Shown here in pieces: positions 17,828-62,712 of a DNA stretch of 64,000 nucleotides. The notes beneath the pieces were generated by a model that was given only the letters and a program-made list of their open reading frames with translations, did not search any database and was not told the DNA's origin. The position numbers and the translations under genes are program-made. Each line of letters opens with the position of its first letter. Position 1 is the first letter of the stretch. Source of the DNA: Chrysaora quinquecirrha (Eukaryota; Cnidaria; Scyphozoa; Semaeostomeae; Pelagiidae); assembly GCA_014526335.1 (NCBI GenBank), contig JACTAT010000144.1, forward strand, positions 20,357-84,356, in the 5' to 3' direction.

Positions 17828-20800
17828 ATGAGGTAAAATTTCTTGCTGCATCGCCTAACTCCCATCCTAATCGTTAATAAATTTAGACGAATTAAAATCT
17901 ATTAAATGTCTAAGATCTCTCAAAGCATTTATTTTTGGTAAAGCGCTTCAAATCGTTGTTCATTTCATTATCAAAATGAAAGACGTGAGGTCAGGAGGAA
18001 CTCCCTCGAGTATGAAATAGGCCTATATTTACGATCACTTATTCTCTGTCGGCAATTTCTACGTTTCCCTTCCTCCATTAGTCATAAGTGTTTTGGCTCG
18101 CCCCTGGTCTGCTCTTTGATTTTTGGATTGTTTTTTGGTATGGGTGATTCAACTGCCAAAATCGCAACATTTTATGAGTCAGGGGGTTCTTAAAAAAATT
18201 GGTATCTAAGCAGAAGAGCATTGAATGAATTTAAGAATTTTGGCAAAAAGTCTGCAGTATTGAAATTTTTTCAAAATCTTGAGGTATGTGAGTTTTGATG
18301 CTTTAAATCTTTTTGGGCATTCAAAGTTCAGCTAGGGATATAAACCCGATCCGGAGGAAAGTAGCTCGATCGGGATGAAAGAAGCCCGATCGGGATGAAA
18401 ACAGAAAAATTCTTCTGCAAATTTTCCTCCCGATCGGGACGAAAATGCCAGGAATGTCTATTTACTTATTCCGGGGGATATTTTAGATGTCATTTTGGAA
18501 ATCTATGCCCCAGAAAACCCTTTTATGTGTAAAAAAATTTGGGGTTCCCCGTGTGGATTTTCCAGAAATTGCGACTTTGTTAAAATGACGTCATTTCCAT
18601 TGTTCTACAGGCAGTTTATTGGAAATTTTGCGCCAAATTGCGTGGAGCACGAAAAAATGATGATAATTTTCACAAAAATTAGTTAATTTAGAAAGAAAGT
18701 TCCAAAACATTAGGCCAGGTCAACGGAAAACACGCAAGAAGGGTGCAGAACAATGGAAATGACGTCATTTTTAACAAAATCGCAATTTCTGGAAAATCCA
18801 CACGGGGAACCCCAACATTTTTTTACACATAACAGGGTTTTCTGGGGCGTAGATTCCGAAAATGGCATTTAAAATATCCCCCGGAATACGTAAATAGACA
18901 TTCCTTGCATTTTCCTCCCGATCGGGAGTAAAATTTGCAAAAGCATTTTTCTGTTTTCATCCCGATCGGGCTTCTTTCATCCCGATCGAGCTACTTTCCT
19001 CCCGATCGGGTTTATTTCCCTAGCTGAAGTTGTAGTTCCATAATTAATGGCTTTGACGACAATGAAAACTGTTGGGTGTTGGTAAAACTTTTCAGCCGGG
19101 TCAAAGCCTTTATAGAATTACTCATGAAATTGAAAAAGCAAGCGCTAAAATAGACATTTGACATTTTTTCTCTAGTTTCAAAGTCACCCGTGACACACTG
19201 TATGAATGTGTAAAGGCAGTCCTTGATGGCTCAGCTGAAAAGAAAAGAAATTTCACCGAAACTGTTGAATTGCAAATTGCTTTGAAGAACTATGATCCCC
19301 AGAAAGACAAGCGTTTCAATACACTTTTTTTTCAATAAGCAACTTGACTTTCGTCCAGCCCTCAAGAGTTGCTTAACATATCTAGGGTTTCAGCCGCCAC
19401 AGAATGCCTGGTACCCCCTAAAACCTCTTATTTTGGCTCTTTTCTGGCTTCTCAACGTAACTGACAAGTTTGCAAGGATGTACAGTATAAAGAAAGCTAT
19501 TTCACCAGAAATTTTAGCACAATCTCAGCCCTGGTTGCTTATTGAACGGTTGCTTATTAAAAAAAAAAGTGTATTGAGTGTTTGCAGCAAGAGTCTTATA
19601 AAAATATAGAATACACGCTTTTTTTTTTATAAGGAACCACTTTATAAGGAACCTACATGTAGAAGGCCCGAAAATTTAAAGAACTTATACTACTAAAGAG
19701 AAAATCATTAAGGAACTTTTGAATGTTGAATACTTTTATCACTGCTAATAATCAAGAATTAGAAAGCCAGTTCCATTCATTTGCAGTAGAAAATCACATA
19801 AATTGCACGTTAAGCATGTATCCAATGTTTCTTTGAGTAGTCTCGAGCTTTGCTTACATGCAAATGTCTCTCTTTTATTGTTAAGACCACTGTATGTGCA
19901 CTTAAAATTAAGGAACTATTAAGGAACTTTTGGAACTACAATTGACTCAAAAGAGGCCCAAAAATAAGGAACTTTAAGAACTAGGCCTTGAGGTAGGTTC
20001 CTTATAAAAAAAAGCGTGTATGGACCATGTACATATTTTGAGGGTGCTGTGGCGTCATGGTGTAGTCCAGCTGACTCATGGTGTCAGGAGCTCAGTGTGG
20101 TTGATGTCCAAACCCAACCATGGTAGTGTCACAGCCAGGTTGAGGTCTTAAATAGTTAACCTACTACTGAAATCCTAGTGACTGATGCTAAAACACCAAT
20201 TTAACCTTCACCTTCAATTTGACTTTCCTTGTGCGTGTGCTATTGAAGCATTCAGAATTCCCAACTCTATAAGGGCTTTAGTCACTGGCAGTGCAAGCTT
20301 TCGGCATACCTGGAGTAAACTGTTAAGAAATTTTAAACTTTGAATTCATGATCTTTTACAATTATAGTGCATGCATTGTTAGTAAATTCTACCTTTTACA
20401 CCCTCCAGTCCACTCTGTCAAATAAAGGTTAACTAAGTGCTGAAAACAGGCAAGAGTACTCTAGAGGATGAAGATAATAATCTATTTTGGTATGCCACTT
20501 GTGGAAAAATCTAGAGGATGAAGATAACACTTTCATTGTCAGGAAGTAGTGTTTCAGCTTCAACCTTGGCAATCCTCAGCGAGAGATGCCAGTTGAGCGG
20601 GGAATTCACCTGAAATAGGTTTCTTAGCTTGTAGGTAAAATTGGATTCATTTATTACATTTTCCTAACAGGCTAAAGAACATTCCAAGAAGAAACCTGAA
20701 AGTTTGTGTGCTTGGAGATGAATCACATTGCGATGAAGCCAGAGCCAATAATCTTCCATGCATGGATGTTGAAGCCTTGAAGAAATTAAACAAGGATAAA

Positions 20801-23691
20801 AAACTTGTCAAGAAGCTTGGTAAGATGTTCTGTTATTGATTCTGTGATGTAAGATACTTTTGTGGTGTGTTGCAAAAAGGTCTTACACGCTTTTTTTTAT
20901 AAGGAACCTACCTCAAGGCCTAGTTCTTAAAGTTCCTTATTTTTGGGCCTCTTTTGAGGCAATTGTAGTTCCAAAAGTTCCTTGATAGTTCCTTAATTTT
21001 AACTGCACATACAGTGGTCTTAACAATAAAAGAGAGACATTTGCATGTGAGCAAAGCTCGGAACTACTCAAAGAAACATTGCATAAATGCTTGACGTACA
21101 ATTTATGTGATTTTCGACTGCAAATGAATGGAACTGGCTTTCTAATTCTTGATTTTTTCTAGTGATAATAATATTAAACATTGAAAAGTTCCTTAATGAT
21201 TTTCTCTTTAGTAGTACAAGTTCTTTAAATTTTCGGGTCTTCTGCATGTAGGTTCCTTATAAAGTGGTTCTTTATAAAAAAGGGTGTAATCTGTTTTTCA
21301 ATTTCAGTGTATTATTTTAAAACATTGGCTATTTTATTCAGATGTGATTTTGAAATCTCAGGTAGTATTCAACTAGAGCGTATATGGCTTAAGTACTCTC
21401 CCCCCTCTTGATTTCCTTGGACATTTTGAAGAGCAGAATTGTATTGACTTTGGAGCTTCAAAAAGCAGAGTTTGTTGCTCTTTTGGTCTTCTATTACCTC
21501 TGAGAATTTTTGTAATAGTCAGTTACCAAAAAGATAATTTTGGTAGAAATTTTTTAAAAACTGTTAGGGATAAAGCCCATTTCATATAATCAGTAAATCA
21601 TGAAAGGTCTTGTAGTGAATTTCTAGATGTGTTATTGATTCTGCAGGAACGTAAATGTACATCAACAAAGCAAGTAATCTTTATTTGTTAACCCAGGTCG
21701 GGGTTTCTGGCAGCTGTCTAGCTGTTGTGGACCTGCAGCTAATGCTTCCAAACTGACATTCTAGAAAGAAAATATCACAGGTTCTCATTTATCAACCTTG
21801 GAAGGATGGACATCTGAGCTGACTGTAGGCTTGTGGAAAGTGGTCCCAATGAGATTCAAACCCACAACCTAACAATTGAGCAAAACATCTTGACCACTCA
21901 GCCCAGAACCTCCTTAGGAAATAGAAATGTTGATGGGAGGCCTGAGCCAATTTTGAGTCTGATATAACTTAAATTTGTCTGTTTTCATTTTTAGCCAAGA
22001 AATACAATGCTTTTGTTGCTTCTGACACCATCATCAAGCAAATTCCTCGTCTCCTTGGACCTGGTTTGAACAAAGCTGGCAAATTTCCCACCATGGTAAC
22101 ACATAATGAAAATTTGGTGCAGAAGGTCGATGAAATCAAATCAACCATTAAATTTCAGATGAAAAAGGTAACTTTGACCAGAATCTTGGCACACATCAAA
22201 AGTATTGTAATGCATGCTGACTCCTTTTCAAGTCTTTATTAACATGTAACAGTATCTACATGTCATTTGGGTTTGAAAAGGTTGATCATTACATGACACT
22301 TTCTTTTGTTGTGGTAAGGCCTTGAGAACTGGGAGGCTATGGATTAGCCGGACTTTCACCCAGAGTCTTAAAACAAATGGGCAGACCTTTTTGGTCAAAA
22401 TTTTTTATTTTATTTTTCCTATTCTGGTTTTGATCTATTTATGTTGTAATTGGTGATGTTTTTGGGCTGTACAAGTGATATTTAAAAGTGTTTGATGCCC
22501 TTTGTTTTCCACGAGCTTTGGGTACATTTAGTCTTAAAAATTTCAGACAAAAAATGTTTTTGATATTTTGTTTTCCAACGATTGATTTTGGATGATAAAT
22601 TTTGGACAAAGTAAAATGATATGATAAAAATGTATTCTCCAACAAAATTGTCGAAAAAAATCAGTCTTTCTCTTCATTTTTTCATTCAAAGATCAGTAAC
22701 AAAAAATATTCATTATTCTTAATCAAAGTACAATTGTTTTTGTTAAGTTAATTGCCATCATAATTGGTATAGAGGTCTATAAATAATGCATCTTTCTCCA
22801 AATCGCTGTTGAGAGCCTCCAAAATACCTGTCACTGCAAGGTAGCATTTCACAAGTAGCATTAAAAAAGCATAAACTGAGAGAGACTGCCAACGTTATTA
22901 TTCTCTTATTCATTGTATTGCAGTAAAATTTATGGACAGGTAATTTCAGATGATAAAAAAATTTCCAGATCCCAAATTGGTCTCAAAATTTGACCACCTG
23001 AAATCTTTGTGGAATGAATGTAACTATATGATGAGTGCTTGGACAAAGAGTTGGGTTTTAAAGATATTGCAGATATTTAGGGCATATTTTTTGGTCACAT
23101 TCTGTTTTCACCAGACGCCCCCTTTTTTGGTAGACGTTTTTTGGTAACGTCTTCTGAAAACGGCAGGTTTCGCAGGCCTCCAAAACCTTCTGTCCCCGAA
23201 GGGGGAAGGTTTTGCAGACATTGGAAGGAATCTTGTTTGCCCTTTAAAATGTATGGTTTAGTTTGATTTTGTTCTGATCACCCTAGCGTTTTCGGCAGCT
23301 GTGTTTTTTGGTGCAGGAAACCTTTTCCTGCTAAGTCTACTGTTTTTGAAATTCGGAGAGTTTGCCAAAAACAGAAGGTTAGCAAAAAATAATCCCTTAG
23401 AAAAGAGATAGTCATTATACTGGTTTGTGAAAAGGCTGGTCATGTTAATTTTTTGCATACTGGCATATTCAATTTGCTGCACCTTTGGTCATGAGATATT
23501 ATTTTGTTAACATTTTTCAGGTTTTATGTCTTGCTGTTGCTGTTGGCCATGTTGAGATGTCTGAAGATGAATTGGCACAAAATGTTTTTCTGGCAATCAA
23601 CTTCCTTGTTTCCCTTCTCAAGAAAAACTGGCAGAATGTACGCTCTTTGAACATCAAGAGCACAATGGGAAAATGCCAGAGGCTGTATTAG
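17828..23691 (+). CDS. RPL10A: 60S ribosomal protein L10a (uL1)
   Basis: uL1 of the large ribosomal subunit (L1 stalk). Exons: 17828-17832 (ATGAG, then GTAAAA donor), 19176-19320, 20671-20819, 21995-22167, 23521-23691. Joined reading gives [15 protein letters not shown].., later [44 protein letters not shown] and the end [13 protein letters not shown], all near-identical to the animal family. Acceptors are AG and donors GT, except that exon 2 runs directly into a MITE at 19322 with no GT and meets an in-frame TAA at 19336. The readable exons sum to 643 nt, 11 short of the 654 needed for the usual 217 residues. The missing 11 nt correspond to the GTV-K/R stretch after KRF. Either this allele is disrupted or the assembly is wrong there. 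ATTAAA at 23719 is the likely poly(A) signal. Confidence 0.93.
18150..19172. mobile_element. Palindromic MITE, family P, copy 3, interrupted
   Basis: GGGCATTCAAAGTT (to 18328) and AAGTTGTAGTTCCATAATTAATGGCTTTGAC (from 19027) are the two sides of the family-P core also seen at 16.9 kb, split by the element at 18329-19026. Outer boundaries are approximate. Lies in RPL10A intron 1. Confidence 0.5.
18329..19026. mobile_element. 698-bp near-perfect palindromic element with CCCGATCGGG arms
   Basis: Ends CAGCTAGGGATATAAACC and GGTTTATTTCCCTAGCTG are inverted, and complementarity continues nearly to the centre, so the element could fold into one long hairpin. Arms carry several CCCGATCGGGATGAAA units. 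Flanking direct repeat AAGTT (18324-18328, 19027-19031) suggests a 5-bp target duplication. No transposase. Sits inside an older family-P MITE. Confidence 0.82.
19322..19571 (+). mobile_element. AAGCAAC MITE, short family D, copy D1 (in RPL10A exon 2)
   Basis: TA|CACTTTTTTTTC..ATAAGCAACTTGACTTTCGTCC at the left and GGTTGCTTATTAAAAAA..AGTG|TA at the right, with TA duplication. 250 bp against about 380 for D3, so internally deleted. It begins immediately after an RPL10A exon-2 codon. Confidence 0.85.
19614..20018 (+). mobile_element. AAGGAAC MITE, family G, copy G1
   Basis: Full-length reference copy, 405 bp. Ends CACGCTTTTTT and AAAAAAGCGTG with TA on both sides. AAGGAAC occurs in the left end twice, in the interior at least four times (one pair as TTAAGGAACTATTAAGGAAC) and inverted in the right end. 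Confidence 0.93.
20042..20216 (+). mobile_element. tRNA-derived SINE, family S1, copy b
   Basis: GGTGCTGTGGCGTCATGG, GTAGTCCAGCTGACTC, GTGTCAGGAGCTCAGTGTGG, GGTAGTGTCACAGCCAGG, then TTAACCTA and GCTAAAACACCAATTTAACCTTCACC. It lies two dozen bases after G1, in RPL10A intron 2. Confidence 0.8.
20886..21286 (-). mobile_element. AAGGAAC MITE, family G, copy G2
   Basis: 401 bp in the reverse orientation (left end reads ATAAGGAACCTACCTCAAGGCC). TA flanks both ends. The right terminus is GGGTG instead of GCGTG. Lies in RPL10A intron 3. Confidence 0.92.
21680..21912 (-). mobile_element. tRNA-derived SINE, family S3 (RPL10A intron 3)
   Basis: Read on the minus strand the head gives GGGCTGAGTGGTCAAGATG (A box of a Ser/Leu-type tRNA) and, 30 bp on, GGTTGTGGGTTTGAATCTC (B box), followed by a tRNA-unrelated body. 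A single copy in this window; the 3' boundary is approximate. Confidence 0.68.
23090..23396. mobile_element. Inverted-repeat element with TTTTTTGGTCACATTCTG ends, copy 1
   Basis: Shared with 41290-41894: ATTTTTTGGTCACATTCTG, CCTGAAAACGGCAGG-like core, GGTTTCGCAGGCCTCCAAAA, GGCAGCTGTGTTTTTTGG, then AGAAGGTTAGCAAAAAATAA at the other end. The ends are imperfect inverted repeats (GGNNTATTTTTTNGG). Lies in RPL10A intron 4. Confidence 0.65.
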
Positions 23692-27700: not shown

Positions 27701-30700
27701 CTAAAGGTCACATCTTCACACAAAACATTACTCAATACAAGGAATATAAATATTACAAAATATTATTTTCTAGAAAATCTTTCGAATCATTTTTGATTAT
27801 GCCCTTTGAACCACGTGACATTATTTTCAAAAATTCCTGGCTGTTTGCTTGGCCATCTCATTAATGCGTGTTCAACTTGCAGAAATACAAGGTGTGCTTT
27901 CCCCTTTTGAAGCATGCGGGATCTTGAAGATGAAAATACTCTCTTCATTCTGCTGAAGACTCTCTTGCAATGGACACTCGTCAGCGGTGTTACTGCAGAA
28001 ATCTCGAAGAGGATCATTGCTTGAGGAAGCCCATCTTCCAGATCTGTACTGCCTATCACTGTCAGGAAATCTTGCAGAGAATTACAGTAGCTTGCCAACA
28101 TCCTGTTTTTTTTTAACATCTGTTGTTTGCAAAAGTCTTTGTACCACTAATATCTGAAATTTCAGTTATTGTTTTATTGAATTTATTAATAAATTTTTCA
28201 TAATTTTTGTATTTTTATTATTAATTATTAATAGAATTTTAAGTAATTGTTTTATTGTATATTTAAGTAAATGCTTCAAAATGTGTTCATTTTTTTCAGG
28301 CAATTTGCATCTGGACCACCTGGGAGGTTTGTAAAATTAAATTTATCAAAATCTTAATTTTTGCTGTTTCTGAGTATGTAATAAATCTGCACACTTTGAT
28401 GTTTGCTTAGTAAACTTTGCCAAGAATGCACAAAACTTGCTGAGTAGATTCAAAAGAGACCTTGTTTGTTAAATTTGAGCTCAGGTAGCCGGAGTTATTG
28501 AGCAGTGAACTTTGAGTGCTCCCCTGCAAGCGAGTAATAAATGGTACTTGCAGGGGGGCACTCAGAGTTTTCCAATTGATAACTCGTGAGTTGATTGACT
28601 TGATTTCAAAAATGCTTAGCGGCCCCAAGGCAATCTGAAGCAATCAATGAACCTAGACTAATCAAGATACCTGGTTAATATGTTGCTAGACATTGCCTAT
28701 CGACTGGTAATAATATTAAGACAGAGGAAGCTCTTTCTGACAGTAGTTTTCGATTTTTCATGCACGGATTTTAAATTTGTGCCATTTTGCAAGGTTCCAA
28801 GTTTATTGGTCATCTACAAGCCTCTGTGCTTATTTTAAGCAAATTTTTGCATTGCCCACAAATAGTGCATGCTGCATTTACCATAGCGACCTGACTAGTA
28901 GCAAGAGTTTCTGAATATCCACCAAATATGATAGCCATTTGCGAGCTTCCCGTCGTAAACGCTCGTGCCGTAGATGATCGATTGAGCGCCGCTACTCGAT
29001 TAAGCACCGCAGTTGAATAAGCGCCGCACGAGAAATACAATTTAATAAGTGCCGCAGTCGAATAAGCGACCCGGGAAATATTTGATTATTTACTTTTAGT
29101 ACGCTAGGAACGATGTTTGAACGAATTTTGAAGTGTCACGTTTCAGAAATGGAGTTGTTTCTTTCCCTCAAAAATGAGAAGAATAACCTTGGTAAAAACA
29201 AATATCCTGGCGGTAAATTTGGTTAAAGTAAGAGTTGTAACAATCAATTTAAAACATTATTTACCCCTAGTTGTTTAAGCGCTCTTAATAATCGTTGAAA
29301 TATGCGCGGCAGTCAATTAACCGCTGCAGTCGAAAAAGTGCCGCGCCAAAAATCTGAGAACTTTAATAAGCGCCGCGGCGCTCAATCGATCATTTGCGAT
29401 ATCTGCCCTCTGATAACTTATATTAAACCTGTTTCATTGATTTTTCTGCTAAAAAACCTGCAGTGCTCAAATCTCGGACTATCAGCTGCTAATACATTTC
29501 TCTTTTAATATATTCTGTAGAAAAATTCGCTGAGTGTTGTTTTTTAGACATTTCTGCCCTAAAAGCAGCTGCTTTTCTCTGTAAAATCTTTTGTTCTCGC
29601 AGAAAAAGTGAGGTTTCTGTGCGTGGGTTGTTATGCATATGCTGCATTTGTAATGAATTTTGATTTATCCTGACAGATGTTTTGAATGATTGTGAACGCA
29701 AAGCGCGAGTTTTTCATGGACGTTGCTAAGCGTTTTGTATCCAGAATTTCTTTTTGTTGTTTCAAGCCTTTGAAATTTCGGTCAATATTTTCAGTCGCTT
29801 CTTTGATTTGAAATTGTTAGTATAGTAGAACCTCCGTACATCGGACACACGTGGGACCAATTGTAGAGAGTTGTCCGCTGTATGGAGGTTACTTTTTTAC
29901 AAAGTGATTAAATTTTATTTTAGAAATGTTTGTCCGTTATAAAGAGGTGTCCTTTGTAAAGAGGTGTCCGTTAATAGAGGTCCTGTAGTTTTCTATGAAA
30001 TATTTCTACACAAGTCTGTGTAGTATTTATTCAATTCAGTGTGAACGAACATTAAGGGCTTGTGTGACAAGTATAGGAACAACAATAAATTAACTAAGTT
30101 AGTTAATTTAGTCAGTTTTTGAAAAGTCGGCTCAGGCTCAGTCACGGACAAATTTGAATGCTCAGTATTACTTAGCAATGCCTTAACTTCCTAGCGATGT
30201 CAGGTTGATAGTCTCGTATAATGGAAGTAACTTCCACTTCAATTCGTCGGTGATATGAAAACCTGGTATACACGCTTTTTTTATAAAGAACCACTTTATA
30301 AGGAACCTACATGTAGAAAGCCCGAAATTTTAAAGAACTTGTACTACTAAAGAGAAAATCATTAAGGAACTTTTGAATGTTGAATACTTTTATCACTGCA
30401 AATAATCAAGAATTAGAAAGCCGGTTATATTCATTTGCAGTCGAAAATCACATAAATTGTTCTTTAAGCATGTATCCAATGTTTCTTTGAGTAGTTTCGA
30501 GCTTTGTTCACATGCAAATGTCTCAGTTAAAATTAAGGAACTATTAAGGAACTTTAAGAACTAGGCCTTGGGGTAGGCTCCTTATAAAAAAAGCGTGTAG
30601 TGTTAATGGGTCTATCCGAAATTTTTTTTCAATCAAACTTTAGACACGATACTCTTTCAGGAAGTGAAAATACAATCGCAGTAAATCATGTAGCTAATAC

Positions 30701-43364: not shown

Positions 43365-43397
<33 letters not shown>

Positions 43398-46300
43398 CAT
43401 TTAATCATTTGCTTTGCAGCGATATCTGATCTCTAAATTGGTAAAATTGCATTCACTAATTGATATAGCGAAAATTCTTTTTCATTTCAAAGCTTACAGA
43501 AGTCTTGTGCAATTTGTGATATTTAATCTAATTGAGCCATTCATACCTTGTTTTTATCTATTTCAAAAACTTTGGAAACCAAACCAAACCATGCTCGCTT
43601 CATTGTGTAGCATTCCTAGCTCGCGCTCACGTAAATGTAGCTTTAATCAACATGTCAACAACCAGTAATGACAATAATAGTATCAGAACGTTACAGAAAT
43701 AGAAAAAGACAAGAGAAATGTTAATAGAAAATACAATAGAATCTCCAGTTTATACCTATGAAATGTTTTAAACAGAGTTTACTTTGCAATTCGACCTTCA
43801 AAACGAACTAAAAACGCTCTAAATTACGTGAAATCAAAGTAATATGAAATAAAGTGGTCATTTTAACAATAGAACTCAATAAAAATTTTCAATGGTTGTG
43901 CATATATATTTCATTTGTATTCGAAACTCCAATTGTCAATTATGATGTTCATTGTAAATATTATGGTTTTGCTGTATTAGGATATGTATATAAGTTGTTT
44001 TTTATTAGCCCACTCTCTTGAGAGTACGAGCTATTAGTGGTTTCTTTGCCAACTGTAAATGAGAAGTTTATCATTTATCATCATTACTATTGTTATTATT
44101 ATTATTACTTAACACCTTTTCATCATTCCGTCATTCCGTCATTCCGTCATTCCGTATTCCGTCATTCCGTATTCCGTCATTCCGTATTCCGTCATTCCGT
44201 ATTCCGTCATTCCGTATTCCGTCATTCCGTATTCCGTCATTCCGTATTCCGTCATTCCGTCATTCCGTATTCCGTGTTTTAAAGATAGCCAATGAAACAT
44301 ACCTATCATTCTCTGTTATCTCAAGTCTTATTGAAGTACACTGCAATGCATGGTCTAATTGGCCTATTCATAACTTCTTTCTATATATTTCAAGAACCAC
44401 ACAAAACAAGTGTCAGTTCATTTGCAGCATTCCTAGCAGGGTATTTTTTTATAGTGCCCCATGTTGGTACAAACCTGGTTTTATTTAACTAGTCAATAGA
44501 TAATATTAATAATGGTAATAATAATAAGATAAATTCAGTTTCCGATATTGAATTTCTGTTGTTCTATTTCAGTTTATTTCAAAATTCTAAATTAAAAATG
44601 AATGTTTATATGAATTTATAATAATTAATAAGAAAAAATGCGCTATAAACAACGTGAAGCAAAATAGACAGACAATAAAGTGAATAGTCTTCTTAATGGT
44701 TTTATTTTTTCGGGGGGCGATTCATTCCTTCAAAATCTCGTACACCCTTGCTGGAAAACCCTACTGTTTTCACGAAAATCCCTTAGAAATCCTATTGTTT
44801 TAGCTGAAATGTCGTCCACCTATTGGAAGTGTGAAACGCCACTCTTATTTTTACATTCTTTTTGCATTTTGGATGTCTTTTTATTCGTAACTCAAATAGA
44901 ACCTTTTTTTTATTCCGTCATTCCGTATTCCGTCATTCCGTATTCCGTCATTCCGTATTCCGTCATTCCGTCATTCCGTATTCCGTCATTCCATCATTCC
45001 ATCATTCCGTATTCCGTATTCCGTCATTCCGTATTCTGTCATTCCGTATTCCGTCATTCCGTATTCCGTGTTTTAAAGATAGCCTTTAAAGTTTACGGTT
45101 TGAATGGCTTAGACCGATTAAGGTAAAAAGCTTCACTAAGTTAATTTTTTGTGGTCAAAGCCTTTATGAAATCAGGAACTTTGATTGCTCGTAAAATGTT
45201 GGATACAAGTCCTAGGATAGTGAAAATTTGTGCCTAGACTAAGTTTTGGATGCTTTATTAAATTTTCCTATCAAAAACTCTGTGTGATTTTATATATCCG
45301 TAGATTTGCTTTTATAGCTCATTCTCAACAAACTAATTATTGACTTTTTTCTAGATACACCTGGTGCATCTGTTAATGTTGCATTCGATCCTGATGCACC
45401 TGTGGCGCCCACTGTCCTCACCGTTGAGCCTGAAGAATCAAACCCACCAGCATATGACGCTCTCTACACAACAAAGGTAGCTTGTAGACTTAGGCCCCAT
45501 TTTCACTATACACGTTTTTTTTATAAGAAACCTAGATCGGGGCCTAGTTCTAAAAGTTTCTTAATTTTTGACCCAATTTTATTCTAAAAGTTTCTCAGCA
45601 GTTTCTTAATTTTTTGAAATAAATTGCAGTAAAAACGACAAAAAACCTTCTGTGGGATACACGGGATACAGTATTACTTACAGATGCGAGAAATCGCACG
45701 AAATTAGCCACGCTGGTGCGAGAAATCGCATGGAAATGCTTGAGAACTAATTACTACTTCCACAAATGTGAATCAGTATGTTGGAAATCAGACGCAAAAA
45801 TGTCTACAGTTTCTCTTCCTCGTAGTTCTAAAAGTTTCTTAACTTTTTGAGTGTCTAGTTCTAGGTTTCTTAAAAAATGATTCCGCTATTCATCGCAATT
45901 TTGAAGTTTTGTAAAACTCAAAAACTATTTAGACTTCTCTTTCTCTTTTTGTTTAGCTTCGTATGTTTGTTGTGTGAACATGGTTTATATCCTAACAATG
46001 AAACTGAAACTGGGCATAATATTTTTGATGGAATTTTTCCATGCTGACACTTTTTACATGTTTTTCTTTTTTGTTATAGCTGAGCGATACAGAACGCAAG
46101 CTTCGTGATCGAGGTATTCCTCCTAAAGTGGAGTCATCTGATGAAGACGATTTAGAGTCATCCCCCCTGCCATCTCCAACACCAACAAGAGCTCGCACAG
46201 ATGCATCATCACCCGCTGTTCACACTGATGCTGCTCCAACGGGGGTAATGAACAATCCTCCTGTAAGTGACAGCATACAAACCATTTTCAATAATTCATT

Positions 46301-49300
46301 AGTGAATCTATTGGGTGGGCCGAAAAAGTAGCCACCCAAATTAAAAAATTAATATAAAATATTTCCTGTGGCGAAAGTCTTACCAAACTTTAACCAGGTA
46401 GCCTTTAACCTAATAAGCATCTCTTGTAGAAAAATTAAAGTCATAACAGTTTTTTTCTGAGAGCAATGAAACTCGAGACTATGTAGTCAGAAATATGGGT
46501 GTAACGAAACTAGAAAGGTTACTGCATCAGCAGTATCCTACTAAACGTGAGCTCAAAGAAACTAATCAACAAAGAAAATTATTATGACTTACACGCTTTT
46601 TTTTTATAAGGAACCTACCTCAAGGCCTAGTTCTTAAAGTTCCTTATTTTTGGACCTCTTTTGAGGCAATTGTAGTTCAAAAAGTTCCTTAATAGTTCCT
46701 TAATTTTAATAGTTCCTTAGTGGTCTTAACAATAAAAGAGAGACACTTGCATGTGAGAAAAGCTCGAGACTACTCAAGGAAACATTTGATACATGCTTAA
46801 CGTACAATTTATGTGATTTTCGACTGCAAATGAATGGAACCGGCTTTCTAATTCTTGATTATTTGCAGTGATAAAACTATTCAACAATGAAAAGTTCTTT
46901 AGTTATTTTCTCTCTAGTAGTATAGGTTCTTTAAATTTTCGGGCCTTCTACATGTAGGTTCCTTATAAAGTGGTTCCTTATAAAAAAAAAGCGTGTATCA
47001 TGACTTCGTTGTGATTGCGAAGAGACCAGTGGCCAGAAGATTGCCCTGACTAAAATCTTTTGGACAACTCGGGCTGGCTATCATAAATTACGAAGGGCTG
47101 GTCCATTCGTCTGTAAGTAACATTCGACATGTTCAGTCTTTGCGTAACGCGACTGACGTGGAGTTCTTGAATCCGTTTTAGCATATACAACCTTGCAGTT
47201 TATCTATAGAAGGTGTTATTTCCCCATACAGGGCAAAGACCGTGCTATTCCTAGTTACAATTTGGATGTCGAAGACCTGGATTCATTTGCTTACATGTGA
47301 GTAATAACTAACGTCTGCATCATTTTTATTTGCTTGCGTTGTACTTTGTCGTAAAGGGATGGAAGGGATGTTTTCAGAGAGGGGTATCCTATGAGAATGA
47401 ACGCTTGTTGATACTGACCAGTTATTAAAGAAATCGTTTTATTACAGAATGGATCCGAATATCGACTACACGCAGTTTTTTTTCTAAGCAACTTCGCTCC
47501 GGCCTAGTTAAAAAAGATGCTTATTTTTGGACCTCTTATGGCCGTCTTTTAGTAGAAAAAGTTGCTTAGTAGTTGCTTAATTTCAACTGTATATTTCCCC
47601 CCGAGAATAGTTTAGAGGCTAGAAAAACAGCAAAATCTAACATTGCACATAGATTGACTGGAATCATTTCTGCCTGCTGATATTATTACTCCTGTTACCA
47701 TATACAGACTTTATATGGAAAGTTAAACGAAAAGCCTCCAATGTAATGCTTCACATAATGAGCAACATTACATTCACATGCTAGTTTTGTCGGCAAGTGA
47801 ATGCAAATAGCTTCGTGATATAAATTATCAAATATTTATGTTGCTTAGGTTCTTTTCCTGTGGTACTATACGTTGCTTAAAATTTTAGGCCTTCTACATC
47901 TTGGTTGCTTATAAGTTGTTGCTTATAAAAAAACTGCGTGTAACTAAGTTGACTGAGCCTGGTAAACTATTTGAAACAAGACTGTTTAACCCTAATTGTA
48001 GTTGGGTGTTTTCAACAGACTGTACGGGGGAGGGATATTCCGCCCTCCTAGATGTCTCAGAAACGATATCTATGGAAATAAATAAGGTTATGAAAACCGT
48101 GCGTCAAGGGTCACTAGTTAAAGAAGGTTCGTTCGGATTACAAACCCACCTTTCTTGTCTAGCTTTTCTAGCCTCTGGGCATGTTATACCGATGATGTAA
48201 TCGTATGTTGAAATTCTTAGAATCTAATTTGGTGAGCTCCTCAATTTTTTTAAGAACATCAGGATAAGGTTATGTAATCAAGTAACAAAAGCTTTGATCA
48301 TTCCCCCGCTTTCCCTTGACTATAAAAATCTCGGGAGCGCATTGATCAGCCTCTTGCGATCAGTGGTTTTTGTCAGTGGTACAGCTGGTTAAGAGATCAT
48401 ATTGATCAGCCAAGAAGGTTTGTTGTTTGCTTTACGCGCTGTTTTTTTCTATAAGCAACCGCTTATAAGCAACCAAGATGTAGAAGGCCTAAAAGTTTAA
48501 GCAACGTATACCACGCTAGCGAATCTATAATCACTACTGTGGTGGATAATCACTACTGTGGTGGTGCTATTTGCATACTGTGGTGGTAGTTTCTGCGTAC
48601 TGTGGTGGATAATCACTACTTGTGGTTGGCTATTATGCTTGCGGTGGTGGCAGTTTTGGAGTACTGTGGTGGATAATCACTACTGTGGTGGTACTATTTG
48701 CGTACTGTGGTGGAAGTTTTTGCGTACTGTGGTGGATAATCACTACTTGTGGTGGTTATAATGCTTTATGTGGTGTTACTCATCAAGTGAAGCATTTCAT
48801 TGAGGGGTTTCCATTTAACTTTCATGCAAAGTCAACAGGGAGAAATGATTCCAGTCATTTTCTGTGCAATGTTTGATTTTGCTGTTTTTCTAGCCTCTAT
48901 ACCATTGTTAGGGCAAAAAGATACAGTTAAAATTAAGCAACTATTGAGCAACTTTTGCTGCTAAAATGTGGCCATAAAAGGTCCAAAAATAAGCAACTTT
49001 TTGAACTAGGGCCGAGCGAAGATGCTTATAAAAAGACTTCGTGTATTTTAGGATATTGCTTGCCTATGTATATCTTTTTGTACATTTATTACTTTATATA
49101 CATTTGTTTGTCCAAGGGTCTCTAAATCTAAAGATCAATATTCACTTCAAGTCGCAAATTAAAGCATTGCTAGACCACATCACATCCGTTCAGGCCAGAG
49201 AATACTGTACTATGTATTACTATTAGTCACTACTATGTATTAATGTTATGTGTATATTATTATATGTATTAATAAGCAACTGGACTTTTGTCCAGCCGTC

Positions 49301-52300
49301 AAAGTTGCTTAAAATTTTAGACATTTCAGCCCTCAAAGTTGCTTAACATTTTTTGTACCTACAACCAGCCCGACTTCGCGGGTCAAAATCGTCAACCGTT
49401 AAGTCTACAACACGACTTTTGGGAGACAGTAAGTGGAAAAACGTTACCTAACGAACTTAATGCAGAACAAAAGAACAAACAATTTCCTAACAACAAGAAA
49501 GCGTATAAGCTTGGTTGTTTGACTTCATAGTTGTTTACAGTAATTCAATTGAACCCTCAAGTTGCGTAATGTTAAGGTCACTTCAGCCCTAGTTTCTTAT
49601 TGAGCGTTTTCTTATTAAAAAAAATATGTATTTGCAAACCAGATGAGCAAAAGAACACGCTTCAATCAGCTATACACCCAACTCGCAACTTCCGACTTCG
49701 AACTCTCATACATATTAAATTCCCAGTTGATCTCGTAACTCGCATATTAGATGCGACTCGCACCTCGCACAATAAGTTCAACTCGCAACATGTTTAAAAT
49801 GGGTTTCCGGGTAAGGGCTTTACGCTGGTGAACTTTGCTTGCGCGTATCTCAAATAGCTTCGGTAAGATGACAAAAAAGTTTGACCCAAATATCAGCCTG
49901 GTGTTTCTTATAAAGGGCGAAAAATACCCGTATTTTTTTTTTATAAGAAATCCTTTATAAGAAACCCAGACTCTCGAATTGCCATAAATTTAAGAAACGT
50001 CAGTATACGTATAGGAAACTTTTCACTTGAGACAGCGAAAAATTTCATTTTATTTCCCATGTTTCGTCTGCAATAAAGCATTTCTGTGACAAGCAGACAA
50101 ACAGGAAGCCCCATATGCATTCAAATATCATCGATAAATGGGTTTGAAACATCATTCAAATAGAATAACTATGTTGCAAATATGGATATTCAAGAAACTC
50201 TTAAAAAACTTTCAGTACTCGAAATTTGACAATTTTAAGAAACTTTCAGTACTGGATCAATTTTTCAGTTTCTTATAAAAAAATACGTGTACTCCTAGTA
50301 AAAGTAGAGTCACTCCGATCTGACATAGTGGCCCTGAACGACTGTAAAAAGATTGATGGGAAATCGCAGACTTGGTCTTTCTTGAGAAATTTGTCGCGCA
50401 GAAGTGATCTTTACTTTTTTTGACTTTGTTCACATTATTTTATTTGCTTTGTTTTCTTACAGGCCTGCACCTCAAGGAACTACTGTAAAATGTAGAATCA
50501 CTAGAGATAAGAAAGGAGTTGACAGAAATCTCTTTCCAACTTACTTTTTGCATATGGAAAAGGATGATGGCAAAAAGGTATTTTTCAAATGCATATTGTC
50601 ACTCTCTATTTCCACGGATTGTCTTGTATCCCTTTCCATATCTTATCCAAAGCTTGTCTGTGCTTAAGTTCTTCGCATTTTTCTCTTCAAAGCTGAAAGA
50701 TACTGCATGCTCTTTTATAAGGAACCACTTTATAAGGTACCTACATGTAGAAGGCCCGAATATTTAAAGAACTTATACTACTAAAGAGAAAATCATTCGG
50801 GAACTTTTCGATGTTGAATACTTTTATCACTGCAAATAATCAAGAACTAGAAAGCCGATTCCATTCATTTGCAGTCGAATATCACATAAATTGTACGTTA
50901 AGCATGTATCAAATGTTTCCTTGAGTAGTCTCGAGCTTTGCTCACATCTAAGTGTCCCTGTATGGTTGTCATGAAACTGAGCATGCGGTTAAAATTAAGG
51001 AACTATTAAGGAATTTTGGAGCTACAATCATCTCAAAAGAAGCCCAAAATTAGGAAACTTTAAGAACTAGGCCTTGAGCTAGGTTCTTTATAAAAAAGTG
51101 TGTATTTATGATTTCCTGAGAAGTCTAAAATCTTGGACAAAATATGTTGAAATGGCCTAAATAGTTTAGCTTTTATCTATGGATTTCCTCTTCTCCCCCG
51201 TTATAATGTTGTTTCGAACAAAAGTTTTTTTGCTAGTTTTTATCAGGATTAAGACGCAACAACATCTTCTGTCAAAGTTCTTCGTGTAGTCACGGTTTTT
51301 GTCTTGAAAGTTATTTTTCGTGTTTCTTGGTTGCAAACTTCGTAATCAATGATAATCTTCTTTTTAGATATTTTTGTTGGCTGGACGAAAGCGAAAGAAG
51401 AGCAAAACCTCAAACTATCTTATATCAACTGACCCTACTGATATGTCACGTGGTGGAGACAGTTTTACTGGGAAATTAAGGTAGCCATAGTCAATTGGAT
51501 ATCGGTATTTTTGTGAGAGAGACTTAAGACGTTTTTCTCTTGTGAATGCCCTTGTGTATGGTACTAGCTGAAGGAATTTCATTCAGGACGAAGGAGTTCA
51601 TTACACACAGATTAAAAACCCAACATTTCATGAGATACACGCTTTTTTTATAAGGAACCACTTTATAAGGAACCTACATGTAGAAGGCCCAAAAATTTAA
51701 AGAACTTATACTACTTAAGAGAAAATCATTAAGGAACTTTTGAATGTTGAATACTTTTATCACTGCAAATAATCAAGAATTAGAAAGCCGTTTGCATTCA
51801 TTTGCAGTCGCAAATCACTTAAATTGTACGTTAAGCATGTATCCAATGTTTCTTTGAGTAGTCTCAAGCTTTGCTCACACGCAAATGTCTCTCTTTTATT
51901 GTTAAGTTCACTGTATGTGCAGTTAAAATTAAGGAACTATTAAGGAACTTTTGGAACTACAATTGCCTCAAAAGAGGCCAAAAAATAAGGAACTTTAAGA
52001 ACTAGGCCTTGAGGTAGGTTCCTTATAGAAAAAAGCGTAAAAAGGAAGCAAACAGAGAAATAGACAAGAATATTGCATTTTCACACATACCTAGTACCAC
52101 CCCAGACATTTATTGAAAAATATAGATATCTTGGTAACCAAGGAATTATGAACAGATTAAGAACATTTCAGGCTCAAAAACGACAAAAGTTAAGAACAGC
52201 CAGCCTCGATTAAAATTTCCTGGTTCTTTTAAAAACAAAGTGTAGTTGTAACTGCTAACTTATGACAACATGTCATCATGTCGGAGCTGATAGAATCTAG

Positions 52301-55300: not shown

Positions 55301-58300
55301 TAGGAGCATGAATCATTACTTGAAAGATATCGTACTGGAAATATGGAAAACCTAATAGAGCTACATAACAAAACACCAGTTTGGAATGATGGTGAGTATG
55401 AGACTTCTTATTATCCTGTATGTTAATGAATTGTTATTATCATATAGTATCTTTTCCTTCTCTGATTTATTGGAATATAAAATGTACGGAGTAAATCTAC
55501 ACATGACTAGGCGGATACTAGAAGAAATCTATAATGCTGCGGCTACACGTGCAAGTTTTTGCTTGAGATGGTGGCAGATCATGTTCAAAAAAGGTTCTGC
55601 AACCTTAGGAAATACGCTTATATGCTTTTGCTTATCACCAGTAATGTCGCAGCGTGTAACCGGTGTTTCGAATTGGCAATGCAACAACGCAACACACTGC
55701 ATTGTTTTCGTGCCTTTTCCTGGAAATTTTCTAGTGCCCATTCTTGTTATCACGCAAGTTGATTGTCGCAGAACGTCTTGCGCAGCATTTTTGTCGCAGC
55801 GTGTAGCCACCTTGGGATTTTTCATGACGGGACATTCTAAAGTGGGACGTGTCACCATTTTAAGCAATTAGTTGCACGTGTTGGGCTTAACACTAAGGCC
55901 CAGGCCAAACGATCCGTTGCTTGCCAAGCAAAATTTTTTACCGTTTTGCCACGTCCAAATTCATTGCTCCTCCAACATTTATTGCTTGCGTCAAACAAAA
56001 CTGTTTTTGAGCGTTTTCAAAAACATCACGCCACAAATTTGCTTATTTTTGCTTGTAAGCAATGCTTGATCAACTGGCCACCTTTCCAGCATTGCTTGTC
56101 AAACATCTCTTTTGTTATTGTCAAACATCAACAGCACCGAGTAACTTTTCTTAACAACAATGTGCCCGTGATCGCCCATTAGCAATATCTTCGTTGTTCC
56201 GAAATGTTGGACAGCAATGTTTTATGACGTAGCCAAACGGTCAAACATTTGTTATAGAGGAAATTTCAAATGTTTTATGTTTGAACGTTTGGCCAGGGTC
56301 TAAAGAAGATTCAATAGCCAAAACATGAGTGGGAATTAGATGAGATTATATCACAGAGATATGAAAGACTTCAGCATTAAGCTCATTTCTTCAGTTCCGT
56401 CATATTGTGGTATATACCATTCATGGAAGATACATTTCTATGATCATCAAAACATTATTACAGAGTGAAACATAGCCGCGCTATCGCAATGTCCGAAGGA
56501 CAATAATCACCATCACAATCGTCATCGAATGGTTATCATCGTCAAAATTTTTATTGTTATCATTATCATCATCATCATCATCCTTGTCATCATCATCATA
56601 AGCATCATCATCATCACCATTGTCATCGTCATCATCAACATCATCAGCATAATCAACATCATTATCATCATCATCATCATGACCAACCAAACAATCATCA
56701 TTTTGCCATTCTTATCATTATCATCGAAATCGTCATCATCATCATCAATGTTATTATTATTATTATCATCATCATCATAATCATGGTTCATAACCGTTAC
56801 GGTATTAGCAACCTATAACTGAGTCACGTCTTAGTAAAATGTCTCAGAAAACATTTCCATGACGCAGTTGATAACTCTAATCTCTTTCGGGATTTCCCCA
56901 CTAAATATCTTGTTATAAAATAAGAAAATCGAGAATATTCTGAAAACGACTAAAATTTTGCAACCATATCCAGAACGCAACAGAAGATTCGAATCTAGTC
57001 GTATTACGCAAATGAGAACTTTCAGAATTTTCTGATTGGATAAAAAATCAAATTATCTACAGTAAATAAGAACTTCGACAACTTCTGCCAAATACTTGGC
57101 ACCATGAATCATCTGCGTGTTTACAAATTCCGTTGTCAAATAGTTGGTTTTCATGATGACCAATTACGGCGACTTCAAAGTTTACTTCCTCGTATTTGTG
57201 GTTTATCTATTGTTACATTTTGGCAGAAAAAGCGTCTGTGTGTCTATGGATGGATATATACATACATGTATACATACCTACATGCGTTCCACAAACACCC
57301 TCTCATTATGTCCTTCGGACATAAAAACCTGCAAACAAGAACCACAAAATAGCGATTAGGCCACAAAATCGACTACATGGCAACAGAAGACCTTTTGCCA
57401 CGACTTAATCCCCTTTGTATGCATGACACAGGAAATCGCTTGAGTGAACCTTCTAGTTAATTCCCTACACGCTTTTTTTATAAGGAACCTACCACAAGGC
57501 CTAGTTCTTAAAGTTCCTTATTTTTGGACCTTTTTTGAGGCAATCCTAGTTCAAAAAGTTCCTTAATAGTTCCTTAATTTTAACCGAGGGGCAAATCACT
57601 CCCTAAAAAGTGTACGTGATTTTTAATCAGGGGTTATTTTTGTGTGATTAATGTGATTAATTTGTGATTAATGTGATTTTTCGTGATTAATATGATTTTT
57701 TTATGATTAATCTTGAAAGTGTATGTGATTTTATTTTGATTATTTTATGATTTATTTGGTTATTTTTTTATTTATTTGATTATTTTGTGATTATTTGATA
57801 ATTTGTGATTATTTTGATTATTCGTGATTAATTTGATTTTTTGTGATTTATTTTGATTATTTGTGATTAATTTGATTTTTTGTGATTAATTTGATTGTTT
57901 TATGATAAATTTGATTATTTGTGATTAATTTGATTGTTTTTGCGATTAACCTGGAAAGTGTGCGTGATTTTGATTTGATTATTTTGTGATTAATTTGATT
58001 ATTTTGTGATTAATTTGATTAATTTGTGATTAATTTGATTATTTTGTGATTAATTTGATTATTTGTGATTAATTTGATTATTTTGTGATTAATTTGATTA
58101 ATTTGTGATTAATCTTGAAAGTGTACGTGATTTTAATCAGTGATTTGCCCCTCGATTTTAACTGCACATACAGTGGTCATAACAATAATAGAGAAACACT
58201 TGCATGGGAGCAAACCTCGGGACTACTCAAGGAAACATTTGATACATGCTTAACATACAATTTATGTGGTTTTCGACTGCAAATGAATGGAACCGGCTTT

Positions 58301-61300
58301 CTAATTCTTGATTATTTGCAGTGATAAAACTATTCAAGAATAAAAAGTTCTTTAGTTATTTTCTCTCTAGTAGTATAAGTTCTTTAAATTTTCGGGCCTT
58401 CTACATGTAGGTTCCTTATAAAAAAAAGCGTGTATTCTGTGTAAGAACCAAACATTGTGAGCCAGTCTCTCAGTGGTTCTAATTAAATATTAATGTTACG
58501 AGTAATACTTAGGCCAAAAGGTGGACAAGCATGATAAATGAAAGGAAGGTAAAAAGAAAAAGCACCTCATCAGACCTGCGGAATTCCAAGGAGTTCTTGC
58601 TTTGAAACAAGGCAAGACGGTACAAAGGAAAAGTTAGATTTTATTCTCATTGGCCCTGAAGAAGTCCTGTATGACGGGCGAAACGAAACATTGGCAACAA
58701 ATGTTAATTACACTTTTTTTAATAAGCAACTTGACTTTCGTCCAGCCCTCAAAGTTGCTTAAAATTTTAGACATTTCAGTCCTCAAAGTTGCTTAAACTT
58801 TGCTTAACAGTTTTTATCTACTAACCACCCCTGACTTCGCGGGTCAAAGTCGTCATCTGTTAGGCCTACAACATGACTTTTGGGAGACAGTAAGTGCAAA
58901 AACGTTAGCGAACGAACTTCAACATGCAAAACATAAGAACGAAGAACAATTTCCTAACACAAGAAAGAGAATAAGCTTGGTTGTTTGTTCTTAGTTGCTT
59001 GCAGTAATTCAATTGAGCCCTCAAGTTGCTTAATGGTAAGGTCAGTTCAGCCCTAGTTGCTTATTGAGCGGTTGCTTATTTAAAAAAAAGTGTATGCAAA
59101 GTTTTTTTTCTTTGGTGCCGCCTTGCCTTCTTTCTTTCCACAAATGATAATGAACATGCAGGAAGTAATTCCAGTAATCTCCTAGTGTTTTGAAGGGGAA
59201 AGCCCCCCTTTAAGATTAGCCTTGTTTAACGGCATCATTCGTTATAAACATGAGCTGAAAATTTGAATTAGAGTGAGACAATCTGTGTATGAGTGGTTTC
59301 TTATTGCATTTTCGTGTACGAGGTAAAACCATCGAATGTTTACTAAGTGTCAGTAATGTAATTGTGTAACTGATGAAGTAAAATGCTTAGTCTTTGCTAG
59401 TTATAGATTGCTAGTTAGAGATTGGAGGATATTAATATATGCCACTGAAGGGCGTGCTACCGACGCAAAACCGCAAATTGCGAGGTTAAGGGTCCAATCA
59501 CTTCATCTTGCTGTTTGCCACACATGAAGTAGATTGGCGAAAATAATTGGTTCTGCCTGTAGTACACGCAGTTTTTTTTATAAGCAACCGCTTATAAGCA
59601 ACCCAGATGTAGAAGGCCTAAAAATTTAAGCAACCTATAGTACTACAGGGGCAAAACCTAAGCAACATTTTAAATTTTAGATAATTTAAATCACTGCAAG
59701 CAATCGAGGATTGATCAACATAGAAGCTATTTCGATTCATTTTTCGTCAAAACTCGCATATCAAGAGTACTATACCTCATCGACATGATTTTCACGAAGT
59801 TTAGGGTCTTGTTTGAAGACGGAAGTGAGGACTACATTGTGTCAGAAGACATCAATGGTATAGACATCGTACTTCTTGACTAAACTGATGTAATTTATAG
59901 AATTTCTTTGATATATATTCGGTGTTTTTAGCGTTATGTTTTATAAAAATCCTAAAAAAGCTACAGCAGAACTCCAATTTCTAGCCTCTATGCTATTCTT
60001 AGGGCAAAAATATGCAGTTAAAATTAAGCAACTATTAAGCAACTTTTGCTACTAAAAAGTGGCAAAAAGAGGTCCAAAATAAGCTTTTAGAACTAGGCCC
60101 AAGCGAAGTTGCTTATAAAAAAAATTGCGTGTATGGTATGTGAAATGTTAAACAATGTCTTATTTTCTTGTGTTTCTCACCAGATACTCAGTCATACGTC
60201 CTTAATTTTCATGGAAGAGTCACGCAAGCATCGGTTAAAAACTTTCAAGTCATACATGAAAATGATCGTAAGTGCTTTTTTGCGCCCTTTGCCGTAATTT
60301 TTTCTTGTCTGTGGTATATTATACAAAGATAATCGATACTGGGTTCCTTTGTAGAGTTGTTGAGTTCCGATTTTGTCTGTATGTGATTGTGATCTACAGA
60401 GTTTTCAGTCGTCAGAGATGTTCCACCGTCTTGAGACAATTATAAATATGCTTCCAAGCTTTTATATATCAGTCAAAATTAAAGAACTGTGAAAACTCCC
60501 TAATCTGATTGGTTGCTGCAAATTTACCGGCATAATTTTCCTAGTTGTATCTACCACAACTTCCTCATGTTGGAAACCAGGCTGCGGGCTTTCTTGCATC
60601 AAAAGACACATTTGCAAATCAAGAAAATGGGAAGTTTCGGGGGGGGGGGTCTTTCGCGCTTCACAGCACGAACAGTATGTTTTATGGGAGTAAACTCCAG
60701 GAATTTGACTTTTTTAATGGGAACTCTGACAATATTTTTTTTCAAGACTCCCGAAATCACCTTGTAAAGCCTTCAACTGTGCGAAGATTATGGCAATTAT
60801 TTTTGTCCGTGATTAACATTCTTGAATCTCTTGTTAAAAGCATTTTCCAGGGATTAACTTTCGCGAATATTGAATATTGACTTTCTCGACCAAAAACGTG
60901 AAAAACGCGATAGGTTCTTCCCGCGAAAGTTTCTTCTCTCCTAGAATTTCACAAATGCTATCTCAGGCTTAATTCAGTCCTCGTACCAGAGGTCGGTAGT
61001 AGTACAATGTCTTAATCAATCAGTGATTTGTAATTTGCAAAAGGCGTATTAACAATGGGGGCACGGAGGTCGGTCGCCAAGATTGAGATATCGCCAAGAT
61101 CAGTTTTGCTTATGGCCTAAATATTACGACAAAATGTCATAAGATACCTTTCAGCTATGCTTACCATGTGTAAGCACGACGCCCTGATTTTCTTTGACCA
61201 CGCCCTTTTACCCGTCTGTAGTTGGACCTTTGACTACGTCACTGCATATCAGTAGTTGTATTTGTTGAAATATTACCAAATAACATCAAACTTTCTTTGC

Positions 61301-61723: not shown

Positions 61724-61956
61724 AAGGCCCATTTCCACTTCGTTCGCATTCGCTGTTCGCTAGCGAATTTGCAGTTCGCCGCTCGCTTGCGAACAGAGTA
61801 CAGCCTTCGTAATCAATTTTAGGCGCTAAAAAGGTAAAATTTTTGCGAAAACTTTAGCTTTACTGGCAGCGGAAATCAAAATCGCTTCGTGTTCGCCATG
61901 TTTTGATGGCTAGCGAGCAGCGAACAGCAAGTGCGAACGAAGTTGAAATGGGCCTT
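61724..61956. mobile_element. MITE with AAGGCCCATTTCCACTTCG ends
   Basis: AAGGCCCATTTCCACTTCGT and its inverted partner ACGAAGTTGAAATGGGCCTT; further in, GTTCGCTAGCGAA and AGCGAGCAGCGAACAGC also pair. 0.23 kb, hairpin-forming. 0.3 kb after the tubby stop. Confidence 0.78.
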
Positions 61957-62500: not shown

Positions 62501-62712
62501 CACGCTTTTTTTATAAAGAACTTACCTCAAGGCCTAGTTCTTAAAGTTCCTTATTTTTGGGCCTCTTTTGAGGCAATTGTAGCTCCAAAAGTTGTCTTAA
62601 CAGTGGTCTTAACAATAAAAGAGAGACATTTGCATGTGAGCAAAGCTCGAGACTTTCGGGCCTTCTACATTTATGTTCCTTATAAAGTGGTTCTTTATAA
62701 AGAAAAAGCGTG
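62501..62712 (-). mobile_element. AAGGAAC MITE, family G, copy G9, internally deleted
   Basis: Both ends and TA flanks are present, but the middle (from CTCGAGAC to TTTCGGGCC) is gone, leaving 212 bp. Confidence 0.9.

Follow-up and report, generated by a model that had tools for sequence, protein, structure and literature searches.

A heptamer that changes in concert among families of miniature transposons in the jellyfish Chrysaora quinquecirrha

How can a single base of a short repeated word change at nearly all of its dispersed sites within a transposon? The question is raised by a stretch of 64,000 nucleotides from the scyphozoan Chrysaora quinquecirrha (contig JACTAT010000144.1 of assembly GCA_014526335.1, positions 20,357 to 84,356), hereafter the window, which is populated by miniature inverted-repeat transposable elements (MITEs) bearing repeated copies of the heptamer AAGNAAC. 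On both strands together, AAGGAAC occurs 53 times in the window, AAGCAAC 52 times, AAGAAAC 48 times and AAGTAAC 8 times. A first-pass annotation of the sequence had described at least 18 TA-flanked MITEs of one architecture, nine with AAGGAAC (G1-G9), seven with AAGCAAC (C1-C4 and D1-D3) and two with AAGAAAC (A1-A2), and had proposed that the heptamer is the site of a protein whose specificity had switched. All 18 elements and their words were located as described, and the G, C and A elements align with one another. The grouping itself stood only in part: the D elements have only the heptamer and the style of their ends in common with C, D2 is mixed, and A1 and A2 do not form one sequence family. 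Read from the flanks alone, the TA target duplication is intact at both sides in 13 of the 18; one end is degenerate or missing in G4, G6, G7, A1 and D2.

Heptamer sites that change together

For comparison between families, 15 of the 18 elements (nine G, four C and two A) were aligned with MAFFT, the insertion in G8 having been taken out beforehand. D1-D3 were excluded from every statistic, as beyond short stretches they do not align to G, C or A outside the heptamers. The G, C and A elements were found to have a common layout of eight homologous heptamer sites, S1-S8, amounting to 120 site cells: S1 and S2 lie in the left end, S3 follows AAATTT, then come S4 and the S5-S6 pair, 11 bases apart, S7 precedes the AGGCC block, and S8 lies inverted in the right end. 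The families thus align at their heptamers as had been claimed, and the contrary outcome, a lack of homologous positions between them, was not seen. The expected six to nine heptamers per element proved too high, exact words at S1-S8 numbering 2-7 in each G, C or A element. In the G family, position 3 of the word varies too: each of the eight copies possessing S3 reads AAAGAAC there, and the same word is found at S1 (four copies), S4 (three) and S8 (three). One AAGAAAC stands outside the array in four of the nine G copies (G1, G2, G3 and G7) and in C1.

Cells were scored when the heptamer had at most two mismatches outside its middle base; seven gapped and four too degenerate cells were dropped from the 120, leaving 109. 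Among these, the middle base of G elements was G in 64 cells, A in one and C in one, that of C elements was C in 29 and A in one, and that of A elements was A in 13 of 13. The three exceptional cells are S7 of G6 (AGGAAAC), S6 of G9 and S7 of C4, the latter two next to deletions. The middle base is distinct in all three families at S2, S3, S5, S6, S7 and S8, and is always G, C and A, respectively. In the background columns of the two end blocks, the family consensus sequences differ from each other at 29-35%, and all three differ at 7.7%.

The independence of motif and surroundings was apparent in a stricter set of 106 site instances, in which no more than one other heptamer position was mismatched. 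At the same site in different families, the middle base was identical in 0.5% of 389 pairs and the 20 flank bases were 67% identical; at different sites within one family, the middle base was identical in 97.5% of 2,226 pairs and the flanks were 35% identical. Flank identity between different sites was 35% within a family versus 34% between families, and the remaining six heptamer positions were 92-95% identical in every class of pair. When the states at each site were redealt among lineages, the observed concordance was reached in none of 200,000 shuffles. The first-pass annotation had argued that independent mutation would not give such a pattern. The concerted, in-place change of the middle base between families is confirmed, with the flanks diverging separately.

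Per aligned base, and with heptamers removed, the distance between A1 and A2 is 0.45, and that between A1 and G is about 0.30. As A1 is nearer to G than to A2, "A" is not one sequence family, and AAGAAAC is common to both sides of a deep split.

The same concordance was observed across the 328-Mb assembly (740 contigs). The exact S5-S6 pattern, either G or C being allowed in each middle position, had 2,093 matches, and a backwards control had none; 2,012 pairs were GG and 71 CC, leaving by subtraction 10 mixed pairs, compared to about 146 expected by our own arithmetic under independence of the two sites. Exact heptamers near the match were sought in eight MITE loci: six (L003-L007 and L009) have G arrays, one (L008) a C array, and in L002 the pair alone is exact. 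Six of the eight also contain AAGAAAC words away from the array positions.

Transposase origin and full-size relatives

A remnant of a transposase gene is retained in C4, where the final 33 residues of an open frame reach a stop at 59881-59883. A protein search with this tail returned P0004 among four candidates (E=0.29 in the full database), 24 of 28 residues being identical at the extreme C-terminus of P0004, and P0004 led to a set of 34 proteins, itself included. The DDE_1 domain (PF03184) is precomputed for 23 of the 34 and was matched at E≤0.001 in 10 of the 10 scanned, with the match of P0009 slightly below the curated cut-off. The near-invariant D363 and D399 of P0007 have DD35D spacing, with 35 residues between the second and third catalytic D. 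The N-terminal domain of the relatives matches the CENP-B structure 1hlv (E=1.1e-5), and CENP-B_N or BrkDBD was found at E≤0.01 in 8 of 10 relatives, CENP-B_N exceeding its curated cut-off in three. When the 34 transposases were compared to the window by tblastn, 15 matched, each only at the C4 tail, and a profile of 29 of the transposases picked out no frame but that of C4 (E=4.5e-7, against E=2.9 for the runner-up among 2,785 window fragments). In a predicted model of P0020 (mean predicted local distance difference test score, pLDDT, 74.6; predicted template modelling score, pTM, 0.59), the tail (residues 635-702) resembles a Tudor domain (7de9, E 4e-3, template modelling score, TM, 0.77 by target length), and PF21743 is precomputed for P0022. 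Such a Tudor-like C-terminal domain might steer insertion or read chromatin.

At least 64 places in the genome match P0007 at E≤1e-10 (80 of 108 candidates scored). The survey of full-size relatives covered 30 loci merged into 22 stretches, and 12 further stretches; six matched places of 29-43% identity (C279, C320, C319, C217, C196 and C424) were left out, and loci not described singly were scanned for exact motif words only. Wherever ends were found, the layout is shared: the target is TA, the ends are CAC-T(n), and the left side has four direct motifs and the right side three, with one further, inverted motif within the right terminal repeat. L010, a 2.8-kb element with TA-CAC...GTG-TA ends, has the array at both ends, with AAGAAAC at its four left sites and at S6, S7 and S8, and AAGAATC at S5; its transposase gene is broken, the longest open frame being 505 amino acids (aa). 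L011 bears AAGCAAC at S5-S8 of its right end, and 333 bases of it can be aligned with C4 at 89.6%; over 182 residues P0004 and the L011 transposase share 99% identity, and hence P0004 is probably from the same or a very close species. A1 is 84-88% identical to the full-size A-type elements L012 and L014. In the copies of C332 and C331, which resemble A1, AAGAAAC predominates at the two ends and is replaced at some sites by AGGAAAC or AAGAATC; two C179 copies have AAGAAAC at four of four right sites. On the left, AAGAAAG occupies four of four sites in C89 and three of four in C213; AAGAATA occupies the four right sites of C301_391124 and of two full-size copies labelled C2 (distinct from the window element C2). 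The motifs of C102 are AAGAAAC but degenerate, and those of C483 mixed or degenerate. Most full-size relatives with ends that were read thus carry arrays of their own version, at both ends in L010 and C332 and otherwise at whichever end was found, and five versions coexist in the genome: AAGGAAC, AAGCAAC, AAGAAAC, AAGAAAG and AAGAATA, the last four on decayed full-size relatives.

The features of pogo transposons found here are DDE_1, the 35-residue D-D spacing, a CENP-B-like helix-turn-helix (HTH), the TA target duplication, and the ends of C elements and A1 on full-size copies. Judged by sequence, the MITEs derive from pogo-type DD35D (Tc1/mariner) transposons, this descent being demonstrated for C4 and A1. 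Similar DDE_1 frames, 34-36% identical to P0007, were seen at L020, L021 and L023 (with pieces in L038 and L039); they have open frames of 483-605 aa with one or two stops and no heptamer array within 1.5 kb, and belong either to a pogo branch of younger age or to a family of host genes.

The homologous DNA-binding region was read in L010, C256, C89, C213, C179 and C301_391124, and its predicted first recognition helix differs between motif versions. With AAGAAAC, it is GIDKSMVTKW (L010) or EIHKSLVSKW (two C179 copies, 98% identical); with AAGCAAC, GICKSLVTRW; with AAGAAAG, GIDESLVSKW/GINESLLSKW (C89 and C213, the cores of which are 95% identical); and with AAGAATA, GVNQSLISKL. In a midpoint-rooted tree of the catalytic core, which has some weak nodes and omits C102 as too short, AAGCAAC, AAGAAAG and AAGAATA each fall in one place and AAGAAAC in two, as expected if AAGAAAC is ancestral and the other versions are derived switches.

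Proposed binding sites and competing explanations

It is likely, in our judgement, that the heptamers are transposase-binding sites which followed changes of specificity, and that they now lie on non-autonomous derivatives of pogo elements. These would have arisen by deletion from DD35D transposons of the Tc1/mariner type, each motif copy serving as a binding site for the CENP-B-like HTH domain of its own lineage's transposase. Once the recognition helix of an autonomous lineage had changed, selection would make the sites of that lineage follow, and short derivatives amplified afterwards would record the version of their founder. We infer that the motif is bound by the transposase and that the change was driven by selection for this binding; as a transposase needs its sites, the simplest cause of the concert is selection acting on every site once the helix had changed. 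The initial proposal of a putative site for one element protein with switched specificity is supported by the dissociation of motif and flanks, by the pogo-type origin, and by relatives bearing their own versions together with differing predicted helices.

A different protein, whether encoded by the element or by the host (an anti-silencing or accessory factor), could instead bind the heptamers and have changed its specificity, the transposase reading the terminal repeat only. Seven or eight sites exceed the known need of a Tc1/mariner transposase, and the Tudor-like C-terminus of the transposases hints at chromatin. With VANDAL elements, the short motifs, which vary between related families by one base or a few, are bound by a protein other than the transposase, as given in the available portion of the report (PMC5735166). 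This alternative is nevertheless unlikely: the motif sits in both terminal repeats (S1/S2 and S8), where the transposase must act, in L010 the broken transposase gene or its start accounts for the frames of 505, 182 and 93 aa and no other internal frame is longer than 97 aa, and in most lineages read a different motif comes with a different helix. Neutral homogenisation by gene conversion, slippage or a founder effect, with no binding function, would draw on the close tandem arrangement of S1/S2 and S5/S6 and on the few founders that each family may have had. We consider it very improbable, since single-base conversion at eight dispersed sites is implausible, flanks of different sites are barely more alike within a family than between families and those of the same site remain 67% identical across families, the other six heptamer positions are conserved in all classes of pair, and A1 and A2 have the same version despite their divergence of 0.45. 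Scarcely credible is co-change preserving base pairs in a hairpin or cruciform of direct and inverted copies. Pairing is possible between the inverted copies S7 and S8, whose middle bases covary across the G, C and A elements; judged by the anatomy alone, S1-S7 are uniformly oriented and S8 alone is inverted, and as at most one of S1-S7 can pair with S8, pairing cannot explain their concert.

Four further candidates were set aside. Mutation bias was rejected as it is a single position of a single word that becomes G, C or A, and motif turnover by tandem repeats as in VANDAL elements was rejected as the sites are dispersed and positionally homologous with flanks that are not homogenised. ISL2EU (PHIS) elements, the target of which is A|AT|T in the available portion of PMC4482050, and piggyBac MITEs (CMITE) were discarded on the flanks, which are TA and neither the AT nor the TTAA target duplication, respectively.

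Several observations weigh against transposase-driven switching. The principal weakness lies with G, by far the commonest version: relatives with the CAC...GTG ends that the first-pass annotation had looked to were found in decayed form (L010 and others), with differing helices, and no full-size G-type copy was among the 22 merged and 12 further stretches. No undamaged full-size copy was present among the loci read, and only one end was found for C256, C179, C301_391124 and C2 (right) and for C89 and C213 (left). Mixed heptamers, considered at the outset to speak against the concert, do exist but are rare, comprising the 10 of 2,093 pairs and four individual cases. D2 has AAGCAAC on the left and AAGAAA(C/A) on the right. 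At L044 (1146-1251), AAGGAAC and AAGCAAC stand together at S5-S6-like spacing with no terminal repeats visible. C264 has AAGAAAG on the left and AAGAATG on the right. C225 (L040), which is a chimera or else a lineage in transition from one version to another, bears AAGAAAC on its left (122-208) and AAGGTAT/AAGGAAT on its right (3300-3418), and its helix, NVSESMISRW, misfits a pairing of K with AC. Readable helices are few (five lineages with clear motifs, and C225 with an unclear one), the C332/C331 copies yielded no HTH1, and AAGAAAC accompanies two rather different helices. Finally, the closest structures to the P0020 fold are chains of the Mos1 transpososome, and their TM-scores are low (0.18/0.32).

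Amino acids K, E and Q commonly favour contacts to G, C and A. Based on the few lineages available, a hypothetical code for motif positions 6-7 would pair K with ...AC, E with ...AG and Q with ...TA, and one for position 4 would have D/H with TK/SK for A versus C with TR for C. The broader proposal, that repeated whole-array switches have produced at least five insulated versions of one pogo mobilisation system in one genome, encoded by the helix as a natural CENP-B-type recognition code, is tentative and rather doubtful, its odds being lowered because C225 has E and yet AAGAAAC on its left end. If the code were true, motif switching would be a route by which new families escape titration by older MITEs.

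The window and comparison with known systems

The elements of the window are collected in Table 1. The change at the right end of D2 (window 49592-49636) is shared by both of its terminal sites, the left remaining AAGCAAC, and D2 is possibly a half-switched or chimeric element. The insertion in G8 (window 57584-58155; about 570 bp) has inverted ends GAGGGGCAAATCACT, a duplication GTTAAAAT and a filler of approximately 20-bp TGATTAATTTGATTATTT-like repeats; it is a different mobile element nested in a MITE.

Table 1. Heptamer-bearing elements of the 64-kb window
Element	Positions	Strand	Heptamer	Remarks
D1	19322..19571	+	AAGCAAC	CACTT ends; unalignable with C outside heptamers
G1	19613..20019	+	AAGGAAC	ends TA-CACGC...GCGTG-TA; S1 19631, S2 19646, S4 19710, S5 19910, S6 19921, S7 19966, S8 (inverted) 19997
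G2	20885..21286	-	AAGGAAC	
C1	26905..27332	-	AAGCAAC	
G3	30271..30598	+	AAGGAAC	without S6 block
G4	39442..39840	+	AAGGAAC	left flank CA, not TA
A1	45511..45890	-	AAGAAAC	left terminus missing; 84-88% to full-size A-type L012/L014
G5	46591..46996	-	AAGGAAC	
C2	47468..47941	-	AAGCAAC	
C3	48434..49044	+	AAGCAAC	TACTGTGGTGG minisatellite inside
D2	49270..49636	+	AAGCAAC left, AAGAAA(C/A) at both right-terminal sites	degenerate, mixed
A2	49926..50289	+	AAGAAAC	about 0.45 diverged from A1
G6	50706..51103	+	AAGGAAC	left end degenerate; S7 AGGAAAC
G7	51638..52034	+	AAGGAAC	right end degenerate
G8	57467..58430	-	AAGGAAC	single left heptamer; split by unrelated ~570-bp insertion
D3	58710..59090	+	AAGCAAC	CACTT ends; 7 heptamers in both orientations
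C4	59565..60132	+	AAGCAAC	S1 59582, S2 59596, S3 59628, S4 59660, S5 60026, S6 60037, S8 (inverted) 60108; nt 236-568 match L011 right end, 89.6%
Transposase tail in C4	59782..59883	+		33 last codons + stop; pogo-type DD35D; Tudor-like C-terminal end
G9	62501..62712	-	AAGGAAC	internal deletion

Elsewhere in the window, an intronless reading frame is duplicated in tandem (35392-36310 and 37425-38343; DNA 89.5% identical); its product is presumably a seven-helix receptor by its look, with no Pfam match at 0.001. An inverted duplicate (42584-43182 and 44471-45084; 91% identical) adjoins 15-bp CGGAATACGGAATGA arrays, a 78-bp repeat array of about 38 periods, mostly 93-96% alike, extends from 3397 to about 6600, and a minus-strand fragment (27787-28146) has a sub-threshold hAT dimerisation match (E=5e-4). 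Other exons are putatively those of RPL10A and RAE1; the domain scan gave only WD40/beta-propeller matches. A pattern scan of viral contigs gave one match, on a phage-like contig with AAGAAAC and AAGCAAC mixed, which was taken as chance, and no transposase relatives were found in scans of viral and prokaryote contigs.

Clustered short subterminal sites to which a protein of the element binds are familiar from Ac/hAT and En/Spm (CACTA) transposons; these belong to other superfamilies and have other target duplications. In the open-licence literature, judged by titles and the starts of abstracts, no description of this element group or of in-place concerted motif change was found. Elements of the pogo superfamily have, in the portions available of PMC7386202 and PMC7325037, DDE_1 with DD35D, a CENP-B-like HTH, TA targets and short terminal repeats, and the present elements and their relatives are like them in each respect, the HTH being N-terminal. 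They are unlike them in the Tudor-like C-terminal domain, the subterminal array of eight motifs and the concerted motif change between lineages; the word "subterminal" is absent from the main text of both papers. The CMITE elements of corals, of piggyBac type with TTAA targets, are similarly animal MITE families with common internal sequence and differing terminal repeats, but the available portion of their description mentions no heptamer array (PMC2872659).

The nearest precedent for co-evolving motif arrays is the VANC/VANDAL system of Arabidopsis, in which, according to the available portion of PMC5735166, many copies of short motifs lie in noncoding parts, versions in related families are one or a few bases apart, and the motifs are read by an element-encoded protein, as is proposed for the heptamers here. 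The VANDAL arrays turn over as tandem repeats form, and a protein other than the transposase reads them; in this animal host, by contrast, the homologous sites are dispersed and change where they stand, and are probably read by a pogo transposase. With motif and DNA-binding domain both varying inside one genome, a handful of domains and five DNA probes would suffice to test the question of specificity, and the motif version may allow orphan MITEs to be assigned to their transposases.

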